64,000 nt of DNA from positions 1,258,168-1,322,167 of the forward strand of contig NZ_JAJQXW010000001.1 of the NCBI RefSeq assembly GCF_021246445.1, given 5' to 3'. Below the pieces are notes generated by a model, which searched no databases, was not told the DNA's origin, and saw only the letters and a program-made list of their open reading frames with translations. The position numbers and the translations under genes are program-made. This document shows, one piece after another, positions 3,059 to 33,694 of the stretch (positions within the stretch are counted from its first letter, which is position 1; each line of letters begins with the position of its first letter). Origin of the DNA: Rhabdothermincola salaria. Lineage in GTDB: Bacteria; Actinomycetota; Acidimicrobiia; Acidimicrobiales; Acidimicrobilacustridaceae.

Positions 3059-3907
3059 TCACCCGGAAAGCCGTTCGACCAGACGGCTCAGGGGAACGCG
3101 GAAGTCGTCGAGGAGGGGGAGTCCCGACATGCGCAGGGCGGCGTTGTCGAGCACCGAGTTCGCCGGCCGCGGCGCCGGCCGGGGGGGCTGCAGATCGGCG
3201 GTGGCCACCGGCCGGACCCGGTCCGGGTCCTGGCCGCTGGCAGCGAGGACCTCGCGCGCGAACTCGTACCAGCTCACCGCCCCTTGGTTGGTGACGTGGA
3301 ACGTGCCCGGTCGGTGCTCGACCACCAGACGCATGATCATGGCGGCCAGGTCGTCGGCGAAGGTGGGGTGGCCCCTCTGATCGTCGACGAAGCTGAGGGT
3401 CTCGTGCTCGCCGGCCAGGCGCAGGATGGTCTTCACCATGTTGCCGCCGTGGTAGCCGCACACCCAGGAGGTGCGGATCACGGTGGACCCGGGGTCGAGC
3501 TCGTGCTCCCCCGCCAACTTCGACGCGCCGTAGACCGAGGCCGGCGAGGTCGGGTCCCACTCGGTGTAGGGGCTCGCCTTGGTGCCGTCGAAGACGTAGT
3601 CGGTCGAGACGTAGAACACCGGCGCCCCGACGCGGCGGGCGCCCTCGGCCACGTGGCGGGTGCCGAGGGCGTTCACCAGGAAGGCCCGCTCGGGGTCGCC
3701 CTCGCAGGCATCCACCGCCGTCCACGCCGCCGGGTGCACCACGGCATCGGGTCGGGTCGAGGTGATGGCGGCCAGCACCGCGTCGCGGTCGGACACGTCG
3801 ACGGTGGCGTGGTCGGCGGCCACCACCTCGTGGTGCCCGGCGGCCTCGAAGCAGGCCACCAGCTCCGAACCGACCTGGCCGCCGGCGCCGGTGATGAGGA
3901 CGCGCAC
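3059..3907 (-). CDS. rmlD: dTDP-4-dehydrorhamnose reductase
   Basis: RmlD makes the last step of dTDP-L-rhamnose synthesis, reducing dTDP-4-dehydro-L-rhamnose with NAD(P)H. The protein (282 residues) starts at GTG 3907 with RVLITGAGGQVGSEL, the Rossmann nucleotide-binding loop. It contains YVSTDYVFDG near residue 100 and YGASKLAGE near 125, the extended-SDR active site with Tyr and Lys. The start lies five bases after the rmlB stop, so the two are coupled. The frame stays open far upstream, but that part overlaps rmlB in another frame and is not coding. Confidence 0.95.
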   Translation of the reverse strand: MRVLITGAGGQVGSELVACFEAAGHHEVVAADHATVDVSDRDAVLAAITSTRPDAVVHPAAWTAVDACEGDPERAFLVNALGTRHVAEGARRVGAPVFYVSTDYVFDGTKASPYTEWDPTSPASVYGASKLAGEHELDPGSTVIRTSWVCGYHGGNMVKTILRLAGEHETLSFVDDQRGHPTFADDLAAMIMRLVVEHRPGTFHVTNQGAVSWYEFAREVLAASGQDPDRVRPVATADLQPPRPAPRPANSVLDNAALRMSGLPLLDDFRVPLSRLVERLSG

Positions 3908-30640: not shown

Positions 30641-30686
30641 CCGGGCTGGTCAGCGGCCGCGCCCACTGCCGACCGCTATCGGTCGG
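30636..30686. terminator. Two hairpins between convergent genes
   Basis: GCTGACC/GGTCAGC with a 5 base loop (30636-30654) overlaps the metH stop, and CCGACCG/CGGTCGG with a 4 base loop (30669-30686) overlaps the stop of the opposite glycosyltransferase. They probably end both transcripts; no T-runs are present. Confidence 0.5.
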
Positions 30687-32265
30687 AGGCCTCGGGTTCG
30701 AGCAACGGTGCCACCAGCGCCTGCACGCGCTCGGCGAAGCGTTCGAAGCCGAACTCCTGGGCGCGGGCGATGGCGGCCCGGGACATCTCCCGGCGGAGGT
30801 CGGGGTCGCCCACGAGCTGCGCGGTCACGGCGACCAGCCCGTCGAGGTCGCGGAACACGAAGCCGTCGTGACCGTCGCGGACGATGTCGGGTTGACCGCC
30901 CGCCGCCATGACGACCGGCACCGCACCCGCCGACATGGCCTCGACGGTGGTGATGCCGAAGTGCTCGGCGCGGACGGGGTCGGCGTCGACGTCCTCCCCC
31001 AACCCCGTCGCGTGCCAGTAGACCGAGGCTCTCCGGTAGAGCGCGTCGAGCTCGGCGCCACTGGCATCGATGTGGATGGTGACCGCCAGCCCCTCTGCGG
31101 CAGCTCGCACCTCGTCGAGGTAGGCATGGTCGTGGGGATCGCAGCCCCCGACCAGGTGGAGCTCCCAGCCCGGGGCCAGCCCGGTGCGGACCAGGCGGGC
31201 GAAGGCGTCGACCATCTCCCGTTGCTTCTTGGCATGGCCGCGGCCGGGAGCGAAGAAGCGACCCACCGAGAGGATGATCGGGTCCTTGGCCGCCGGTTCG
31301 CGAAGTCGCACCGGCGGTTCGAGCACCGTGCTGGTCCGGCCCCACCATCGCTCGATCCACCGTTGCGTGAACGGCGAGTTGGCCACGATCCGGTCGTAGG
31401 AGTCCAGCCAGGTGGTGTCGGTCGGGTCAGCGGCGAGGAGCGAGGCCCGGCCCAGGACGTGTCGACGCCACCCGTGGCCTCGTGTCACGGCCACCAGCGG
31501 CACACCCAACCGGCGCCGGTCGCCGTTGCCGAGCACCTCGTGAGCGACGTCGCTGTCGCTGTGGATCTCGACCAGCGCTCCGCCCGGGCGGCCCGGAACG
31601 ACGATGTCGAGGGAGAACGGGTCGATCAGGTCGCGCTTGCTCCGCGGGGGGCTCAGGGTGCCTTCGGCGACGACCTCACCGTCCACGAGGACACCGATCT
31701 GTCGTTCAGGGCCGCCCGGCACGTAGCGCCCGAACCACAGGGTGATCGGCTCCACCCCACCGGCCTGACCGTGCACCCGTAGGACCCCGTGGCCGTTCGT
31801 CCAGTGGACCTCCTGCCACCTGATCAGATCGGAGCGGTGCAGGCCACGCACCGCGTCGACGCGCAGCGAAGGCCGAGCCCACCGTCGTCCGCTGCGGACC
31901 AGAGCCCGTTGCCACGGTCGCAGCTCGCCACCGGGCTGATCCGGGAAGTGCACGACGTAGACGCCACGGGCGGCGCCGCAGCGGCCGTGGTCCCGATAGG
32001 AGAGGTTCACGAGGAGGTCGAAGCCGGCCGTCGTGGCCACCAGGGGCTCGGTCGGGTCGACGACCTGCACCGCGACCCGGGAGAGGTCCGCGGTGAGCCG
32101 CTCTCCCATCCAGCCGGTGTCGACGGCGTCGTGGGCGAGGAGGGTGACCTCGTGGTCCCGGCTCAGGACCTCGGCGACCCCTGCCGCGTACGCCTCGCCT
32201 CCACCGGCGGTCGGCCAGTAGGCGTCGTAGACAGCGACCCGGCGTCGCGACCCGCTCCCCGTCAC
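30676..32265 (-). CDS. GT4 glycosyltransferase with inserted beta-rich domain
   Basis: The 529-residue enzyme has a GT-B frame: YWPTAGGGEAYAAGVAEVL at 17-35, SYDRIVANSPFTQRWI near 290, ILSVGRFFAPGRGHAKKQ near 328, and FGITTVEAMSAGAVPVV near 440 (the E-x7-E-type donor site). Between residues ~150 and ~265 lies a segment not usual for GT4, rich in predicted beta strands (GVLRVHGQAG, ITLWFGRYV, IGVLVDGEV, SLDIVVPGRPGG). A similar insert is seen in the next upstream gene. GTG 32265 overlaps the stop of a 13-codon leader ORF as GTGA, so initiation is coupled to it. Substrates are unknown. Confidence 0.88.
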   Translation of the reverse strand: MTGSGSRRRVAVYDAYWPTAGGGEAYAAGVAEVLSRDHEVTLLAHDAVDTGWMGERLTADLSRVAVQVVDPTEPLVATTAGFDLLVNLSYRDHGRCGAARGVYVVHFPDQPGGELRPWQRALVRSGRRWARPSLRVDAVRGLHRSDLIRWQEVHWTNGHGVLRVHGQAGGVEPITLWFGRYVPGGPERQIGVLVDGEVVAEGTLSPPRSKRDLIDPFSLDIVVPGRPGGALVEIHSDSDVAHEVLGNGDRRRLGVPLVAVTRGHGWRRHVLGRASLLAADPTDTTWLDSYDRIVANSPFTQRWIERWWGRTSTVLEPPVRLREPAAKDPIILSVGRFFAPGRGHAKKQREMVDAFARLVRTGLAPGWELHLVGGCDPHDHAYLDEVRAAAEGLAVTIHIDASGAELDALYRRASVYWHATGLGEDVDADPVRAEHFGITTVEAMSAGAVPVVMAAGGQPDIVRDGHDGFVFRDLDGLVAVTAQLVGDPDLRREMSRAAIARAQEFGFERFAERVQALVAPLLEPEASDR

Positions 32266-32303
32266 GACGCCACCCCGACTGTGAACGCGCCGAGACCAGC
32301 CAT
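32262..32303 (-). CDS. Leaderless 13-codon leader ORF coupled to a glycosyltransferase
   Basis: ATG at 32303 opens the peptide MAGLGAFTVGVAS, whose TGA overlaps the GTG start of the glycosyltransferase (GTGA). TAGGGT lies seven bases upstream of the ATG, so the transcript would begin at this ORF. The glycosyltransferase GTG has no ribosome binding site of its own, which makes re-initiation from this ORF the simplest way to translate it. The peptide itself shows no regulatory codon run. Confidence 0.5.
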   Translation of the reverse strand: MAGLGAFTVGVAS

Positions 32304-32310
32304 CGCCACG

Positions 32311-32316
32311 ACCCTA
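32311..32316 (-). promoter_or_regulatory. -10 box for the leaderless leader ORF
   Basis: TAGGGT on the minus strand, seven bases before the ATG at 32303. Confidence 0.45.
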
Positions 32317-32353
32317 CCGGCGCGACCTCGCGGCCCGAGGACGCCGGTGGCGC

Positions 32354-33694
32354 TCAACGAGCGACGAACCACGCGACCAGCTCGCGGTCGGCGACCCGCT
32401 GTCGGCGCCGCAAGCCCCGGCGCTTCGCCAGCATCCGGGGCAGAAGGCGGACGAAGCCGAGGAACGAGCCGACGCGACGACGGACCTGCACCGCCGTCGG
32501 TCGGCGAGCCCGGAGCACCGGGAGGACGACGTCGCGCCGGGCGTAGGAGGCGGTGACCAGGACGAAGCGCCACACCTCCCGCCACGCCATGGCGCGGGGC
32601 GCGTTCTTCACCAGCATCAGCAGCCGGTTCCGTTCGACGTAGTAGGCGAACAGCGGTGACGTGGCGTCCGAGCTGGCCGCGTGCACGTGGCGGGCCACCG
32701 CTCCCGGGGCCGTGCGATAGCCCCAGCCGAGGGCCCGACCCCGCCACGCCAGGTCGGTGTCCTCGTAGTACAGGAAGAAGTCCTCGTCGAAGAGCCCGGC
32801 GTCGGTGAGGTAGCCCTTGCGGAGCAGCACACCGCCTCCGCACCACGCGAACACGTCGCTCGGCTCGTCGAACTGGCCGAGATCACGTTCGAGCCAACCC
32901 CGGTCGGCGCCCGCCCCGTCCTCGTAGAGGATGGACCCGACGTTGTTCACCACGTCGTAGGCGGTGCCCGCCACCGGCACGACCACGTCGCACGCCCGAC
33001 GCCCCACGACCACGGTCACCTGGCCCGCCCCTCCGTCGATCACCACGTCCTTGGTCCGCTCGGCCTGCAACCGCAGCGTCACCGACGTGGGCTGGTCCTC
33101 ACCGACCGGCACCCTCAGCACCGACGAGCCGCTCGCCCACTCGAAGATCCCGTCGCGATCGTGCTCGATGCCCCAACCGCCCCGGCCGAAGTGGGCGTCG
33201 CGTCGACAGGACCGCCCCTCGACGACGACGTCGCGGAGCATGACCGCCAGCTCCCGCGAATCCCCGGTGCCGGGCACGAACGCAGGCGCACTGAGCGAGA
33301 GCTCGAGGAAGCGGGGGGCGAGCACCAGCTTCGAGCAGGCGGCCCCCAGCGCTCCATCGGCCTCCAGGGTGTCGACGAGCGCCGCCAGCCAGCCGGGTTC
33401 GACGAACGCGTCGTTGTTGATGAGCGCCACGTGGTCGACGCCCTCGAGGTCCCGCATGGCCAGGTTGTTGGCCGGGAACCCGCCGTTCACCGTGTTCGCC
33501 CGGATCTCGACCTCCGGGAAGCGCTGACGGATGGCCTCCAGGCTGTCGTCCGCCGACGCGTTGTCGACCACGACGATCTCGTAGCGATCATCGGGGTAGT
33601 GCACGCGCCGGAGGTGCTCGACGCACTTGGCCGTCATGGTGCCGCCGTTGAAGTTGAGCACGACGACGCGCACGAAAGGTCTCGATTGGGGCAC
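32354..33694 (-). CDS. GT2 glycosyltransferase with inserted beta-rich domain
   Basis: The 446-residue enzyme is a GT-A, rhamnosyltransferase-like GT2: VVVLNFNGG at 10-18, VVDNASADDS near 42, INNDAFVEPGW near 92 (metal site region), then WCGGGVLLRKGYL near 285 and DEDFFLYYEDTDLAWRG near 303-319. Between ~130 and ~245 there is extra beta-rich sequence (SSVLRVPVG, SVTLRLQAERT, VTVVVGRRACDVVVPVAG) that an ordinary family member lacks and that resembles the insert of the neighbouring GT4. The C-terminus is basic. GTG 33694 with TACGCT six bases upstream suggests leaderless translation. It may add rhamnose, as an inference from family. Confidence 0.88.
   Translation of the reverse strand: MPQSRPFVRVVVLNFNGGTMTAKCVEHLRRVHYPDDRYEIVVVDNASADDSLEAIRQRFPEVEIRANTVNGGFPANNLAMRDLEGVDHVALINNDAFVEPGWLAALVDTLEADGALGAACSKLVLAPRFLELSLSAPAFVPGTGDSRELAVMLRDVVVEGRSCRRDAHFGRGGWGIEHDRDGIFEWASGSSVLRVPVGEDQPTSVTLRLQAERTKDVVIDGGAGQVTVVVGRRACDVVVPVAGTAYDVVNNVGSILYEDGAGADRGWLERDLGQFDEPSDVFAWCGGGVLLRKGYLTDAGLFDEDFFLYYEDTDLAWRGRALGWGYRTAPGAVARHVHAASSDATSPLFAYYVERNRLLMLVKNAPRAMAWREVWRFVLVTASYARRDVVLPVLRARRPTAVQVRRRVGSFLGFVRLLPRMLAKRRGLRRRQRVADRELVAWFVAR

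Follow-up and report, generated by a model that had tools for sequence, protein, structure and literature searches.

The 64,000-nucleotide stretch of Rhabdothermincola salaria DNA analysed here (the window) contains two adjacent glycosyltransferase genes whose products differ in fold, and a first-pass annotation had claimed that both products carry the same extra beta-rich domain. We asked whether one domain has been inserted into two unrelated enzymes and, if so, what it might do there. The two genes, for which the annotated coordinates were right, lie on the minus strand with GT2 first and GT4 second, separated by 88 bases (Table 1). Pfam supported both host assignments, with Glycos_transf_2 scoring 53 bits against a cut-off of 23.3 in GT2 and Glycos_transf_1 scoring 67.9 bits against a cut-off of 26.4 in GT4. 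Along with these matches, GT2 has a weak match to PF13632 at residues 258-343 and is without Pfam assignment at residues ~121-257, and the N-terminal half of GT4 is mostly unassigned, with one weak match at 235-317. The neighbours of the pair in this genome are a Ku gene and an open reading frame that, judged from its translation, is similar to cobalamin-dependent methionine synthase.

All four landmarks said to be shared were found in both proteins: a tryptophan segment (W186-ASG-SS-VLRV in GT2, W155-TNG-HG-VLRV in GT4), a TL strand (SVTLRLQ, PITLWFG), a DG turn (VIDG, LVDG) and a (D)(I/V)VVPxxG segment (DVVVPVAG, DIVVPGRPG). The inserts are each ~125 residues long, and their annotated limits, ~130-245 in GT2 and ~150-265 in GT4, were slightly off and are revised in Table 1; together with its linkers, the GT4 insert comprises host residues 109-287. 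The first part of the GT2 insert contains the motif F.P..gDxRxLGV, here FVPGTGDSRELAV, and the second part contains GxxGxE...FxW..G..VLRV. W186 and R147 are invariant amongst 30 GT2 orthologues, as are G141, W155, R251, L253 and G254 amongst 21 GT4 orthologues. The tryptophan, which is nearly invariant in a wider set of 47 GT2 inserts, and the arginine of DxRxLG occupy equivalent positions in the two inserts, and the conserved residues may form a ligand site or belong to the core. In two relatives (L083:3-437 and L084:1-390), the GT2 insert loop behind the conserved tryptophan strand contains a short in-frame peptide repeat (TELSS/TELNG, SGMEP), which is a recent loop expansion.

Table 1. Coordinates in the window of the glycosyltransferase pair and of the predicted inserted domains.
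Feature	Position	Strand	Details or basis
GT2 (GT-A fold) glycosyltransferase	32354..33694	-	446 aa, GTG start; PF00535 at residues 10-120
GT2 insert, residues ~127-250, putative permuted CBM35/CBM6-like beta domain	32945..33316	-	Rotation scan, AlphaFold2, insert-less homologues
GT2 insert, first part, residues 127-163, canonically the last two strands	33206..33316	-	Cut before residue 165
GT2 insert, second part, residues 164-250, canonically the first strands	32945..33205	-	Aligns with the N-terminal part of the GT4 domain
GT4 (GT-B fold) glycosyltransferase	30676..32265	-	529 aa, GTG start; PF00534 at residues 326-499
GT4 insert, residues ~135-262, canonical strand order, predicted CBM35/CBM6-like jelly roll	31480..31863	-	AlphaFold2, VIA-align, insert-less relatives
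GT4 insert, first motif, residues 141-164, GLHRSD..VHWTNGHGVLRV	31774..31845	-	G141, W155 invariant
GT4 insert, last two strands, residues 230-262, ALVEIHSDSDVAHEVLGNGDRRRLGVPLVAVTR	31480..31578	-	Corresponds to the beginning of the GT2 insert

Both segments proved to be additions to their hosts rather than normal parts of the GT families, as insert-less homologues exist for each enzyme. In GT2 homologues of this kind (L138, L148), PKIYF is joined to YAGG by ~25 residues, as opposed to ~125 in the GT2 of the window. In relatives of GT4, the VHFP strand is separated from the DSYDxIVANS helix by either 9-52 or 139-194 residues, a bimodal distribution with a single case at 74. On a GT4 tree built without the insert columns, whose rooting is uncertain, presence or absence of the insert changes at least three times. 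Chloroflexota, Actinomycetota and candidate phyla all contribute deep branches with insert-bearing GT4s, and 24 insert-less GT4s from Actinomycetota, many of them from Ilumatobacteraceae, nest within the insert-bearing ones. This nesting points to secondary loss in the actinomycetotal clade, subject to the rooting, and the module would therefore be dispensable there, which weighs against the binding role proposed below. Three loci titled Bifidobacterium breve or Acidobacteria (L072, L117 and L074) are placed by the tree in acidimicrobial clades and probably derive from mislabelled metagenome-assembled genomes.

The relationship between the two inserts is not apparent from single sequences. BLASTP of GT2 against GT4 recovered only an 11-residue piece of the motif at a non-significant E = 1.4, and it is from this lack of a significant match that one could argue that the segments are ordinary elements of the GT2 and GT4 folds, or unrelated beta insertions alike by chance. 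With insert-less homologues available for both hosts and profile scores that lie well beyond every null, we consider that reading scarcely credible. When full-length profiles of the 30 GT2 and 21 GT4 orthologues were compared, the match listed was insert against insert. In hmmsearch, the match of the GT4-insert profile to GT2 inserts was split in two, with the order of the pieces swapped, and the GT2-insert profile behaved likewise on GT4s; in one relative (L023), profile positions 101-133 of the GT4 insert aligned at residues 143-172 and were followed by positions 3-51 at residues 179-231. The score between deep insert profiles rose from 55.7 unrotated to 92.1 with the GT2 insert rotated at residue 165, at which point the match covered 119 columns from end to end. 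The rotation scan peaked at cuts of 160-168, with 165 the best, and rotation at this point moves the first two GT2 strands to the last positions.

For the deep sets, the maximum score was 14.3 over 60 column shuffles and 17.5 for reversed profiles over all rotations, and an unrelated beta sandwich, Wzt_C, reached 12.6 and 17.1 over all rotations against insert sets A6 and A5, respectively. The scan with the ortholog sets gave 39.0 in native order and 65.0 rotated (maximum of the column-shuffle null, 17.4). As a control, C-terminal copies of the domain from Wzt and from a methyltransferase matched the GT4 insert best at rotation 0 (80.1). Since rotation raises the score from 56 to 92 while controls stay at or below 17.5, we are highly confident that the two inserts are homologous and are circular permutants of one domain. 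Homology without permutation was rejected, as rotation is needed for the similarity to span the whole domain.

AlphaFold2 models of the inserts alone were of high predicted quality for both GT4 (pLDDT 93.0, pTM 0.87) and GT2 (pLDDT 95.8, pTM 0.88). In protein numbering, the modelled strands are 136-142, 151-164, 171-178, 188-194, 197-204, 217-224, 230-236 and 256-262 in the GT4 insert, and 128-135, 151-158, 168-179, 182-197, 204-210, 215-220, 225-230 and 235-241 in the GT2 insert. The GT2 order in these models is the GT4 order rotated by two strands, such that the first two strands of GT2 correspond to the last two of GT4. A Foldseek search with the GT4 insert model returned sugar-binding domains as its best matches, and VIA-align superposed model residues 2-130 on the CBM35 structure 2w3j over 112 residues (Z 10.5, rmsd 2.9). 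Further matches included 2w47 (Z 9.7) and a CBM6 (Z 8.3), and the CBM35, CBM6 and CBM22 matches together ranged from Z 10.5 to about 8. On the strength of its model, the GT4 insert is a jelly roll of CBM35/CBM6 type from end to end.

Fold searches with the GT2 insert model gave no match at Z >= 5, which fits a permuted domain because the aligners follow chain order. Weak immunoglobulin-like and other beta matches of this model were not interpreted, and de novo designed immunoglobulin proteins matched by the GT2-insert profile were put down to strand composition. That the GT2 insert adopts the same jelly roll is suggested by the profile rotation and the predicted strand order; overall, we judge a CBM-like fold for both inserts to be very likely. 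The annotated proposal of one domain in two unrelated folds is thus borne out by the profile comparison, the predicted strand order and the CBM35-like fold of the GT4 copy; what it had overlooked is the permuted order, which brings two further strands into the shared domain.

Scans of the inserts against Pfam and NCBIfam found no family model, and PDB sequence searches gave nothing useful. No Pfam family, CBM models included, matched more than three members of insert sets A5 or A6, and none did so convincingly. Kinship to Wzt_C (PF14524) was rejected, as its profile scores, given above, resemble those of the nulls. As the sequences show no likeness to catalogued CBMs, the fold is the one feature that speaks for sugar binding, and CBM35/CBM6-type jelly rolls serve other functions as well.

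Of 396 sampled genomes from Actinomycetota, 70 contained matches to the canonical-order profile, as did seven of the eight genomes picked via their loci. One of the latter, a Chloroflexota genome (G488, locus L128), contains 19 matches in open frames of 286 to 1140 aa; the genome of the window has just two clear copies, those in GT2 and GT4. By Pfam, the hosts in Chloroflexota include a methyltransferase and ABC ATPases of Wzt type, some of which carry the module behind Wzt_C. Hosts in Actinomycetota include other methyltransferases, an O-antigen-ligase-like protein (Wzy_C), PMT_2 proteins, a GT2 that carries the module C-terminally and other GT4s with the insertion. These other hosts carry the module in canonical order, and amongst the hosts seen the permuted order is confined to the inserted GT2 form. 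In Chloroflexota loci (L101, and by gene order L107 and L118), wzt, GT2 and GT4 are consecutive and each carries the module, with wzm just upstream. Downstream of this trio in L101 lies a 748-aa protein (L101:7600-9846) without a Pfam match. An actinobacterial locus (L191:1117-5005) has three consecutive frames that each end in the module, namely two methyltransferases and a 309-aa frame.

This arrangement bears on whether the modules serve as protein-protein docking domains that tie GT2 to GT4, along with Wzt and further enzymes in relatives, within an assembly complex. The module does occur on adjacent gene products, three in a row in Chloroflexota, and GT2 and GT4 are neighbours in about 20 of 22 genomes with an insert-bearing GT4. 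However, in one Actinomycetota clade insert-less GT4s stand beside 19 GT2s that keep the module, and several genomes (G012, G018, G031, G007, G077 and G065, for example) encode a GT2 with the module and no GT4 of this family nearby. The genome of the window, moreover, holds only its two clear copies, and the fold is that of sugar-binding modules. Docking domains are on these grounds an unlikely explanation. Docking of the two enzymes to each other through their inserts, as first proposed, is disfavoured because one clade lost the module from GT4 and retained it in GT2; another docking partner is conceivable.

The same secondary loss would suit a structural or regulatory lid without a ligand of its own that is kept by descent, as would a structural role, which is possible, for the conserved W, R and DxRxLG residues. 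Repeated joining of the module to unrelated glycan-assembly proteins is more easily explained by a shared ligand, and we regard a lid as rather improbable.

The neighbouring genes in relatives provide the pathway context. In a relative of the same genus, an rmlA-like gene and rmlC-rmlB-rmlD precede the GT2-GT4 pair. Another member of the family has wzm and wzt after rmlC-rmlB-rmlD-GT2, and rmlD directly precedes GT2 in several relatives. These rml and wzm/wzt neighbours suggest that the pathway probably makes a surface glycan that uses dTDP-rhamnose and is exported by an ABC transporter. GT2 is a candidate rhamnosyltransferase, an assignment that stays circumstantial because its weak similarity to the rhamnosyltransferase model TIGR01556 (33.8 bits) falls below the cut-off of 200.55. 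In the genome of the window, rmlD lies at window positions 3068-3907, and a single Wzt_C gene is present beyond the window. This rmlD shares 84% identity with its orthologue in the same-genus relative, yet lies ~27 kb from the glycosyltransferase pair; since rmlD directly precedes the pair in that relative, either the pair or the rml genes have moved.

We propose, with a probability of roughly two in three, that both inserts are a mobile jelly-roll module of CBM35/CBM6 type, canonical in GT4 and permuted in GT2, that sits on the acceptor side of each enzyme and binds the lipid-linked glycan. The module lies within the N-terminal Rossmann domain of GT4, where its order is canonical, and in GT2 between the donor half and the half that holds the acceptor site and catalytic base. 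In the GT2 copy, the new ends fall between the sixth and seventh of the eight canonical strands, and a linker joins the old ones. The N-terminal domain of GT-B enzymes and the C-terminal half of GT-A enzymes face the acceptor, which places both insertions on the acceptor side. There, the module may bind the lipid-linked glycan on which GT2 and GT4 work, and could hold this acceptor near the active site or sense the state of the chain, its length or its end, much as the Wzt CBM reads finished O-antigen. Glycan binding is the somewhat favoured role of the module, made plausible by the CBM35/CBM6 fold, the glycan-assembly and export hosts and the acceptor-side insertion. A grip on the glycan along the assembly line is probable because relatives of the module are attached to exporters, methyltransferases and further enzymes of glycan assembly. 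More tentatively, a single uncatalogued module, permuted in GT-A, may be the common reader of one polymer for GT2, GT4, methyltransferase, ligase and Wzt.

In few systems, such as the Wzt CBMs, is it known how one growing chain is recognised both by polymerising glycosyltransferases and by ABC exporters. A module found on proteins of synthesis, capping, ligation and export would offer a direct handle on such shared recognition, and its two forms in one gene pair would represent a clean natural case of permutation linked to insertion. In the open-access literature we found no description of an inserted or permuted CBM in GT2 or GT4 enzymes. As far as the tools used here show, the novelty lies in a widespread module that lacks a Pfam or NCBIfam model and in the natural permutation that goes with its insertion into a GT-A fold; CBM-like domains on glycan-assembly proteins are of a kind already known.

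Catalogued CBM35, CBM6 and CBM22 domains resemble the GT4 insert in their beta jelly roll, which extends along its whole length, but share only ~10% identity with it and yield no Pfam match; in addition, the identified hosts of the module are synthetic and export proteins, and its GT2 copy is permuted. The C-terminal CBM of Wzt, which recognises the finished, terminated chain (PMC11231755, PMC9445017), is likewise found on the exporter ATPase of ABC-dependent polysaccharides, but it is a separate domain: the L101 protein has Wzt_C at 261-384 and the module thereafter. The chain terminator ORF6 of Klebsiella O7, a multidomain O-antigen synthesis enzyme, has an internal predicted CBM, a CBM-like beta domain that the authors call immunoglobulin-like (PMC11231755). 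The arabinosyltransferase EmbC is also a glycosyltransferase with a carbohydrate-binding module, in this case a lectin-like C-terminal CBM appended to a membrane enzyme and neither inserted nor permuted in a GT-A or GT-B fold (PMC3044687). Finally, RoCBM21 is a permuted carbohydrate-binding module too, but it is a permuted construct of a starch-binding domain from another family (PMC3511584), in contrast to the permutation in GT2, which is natural and tied to insertion into the host fold.
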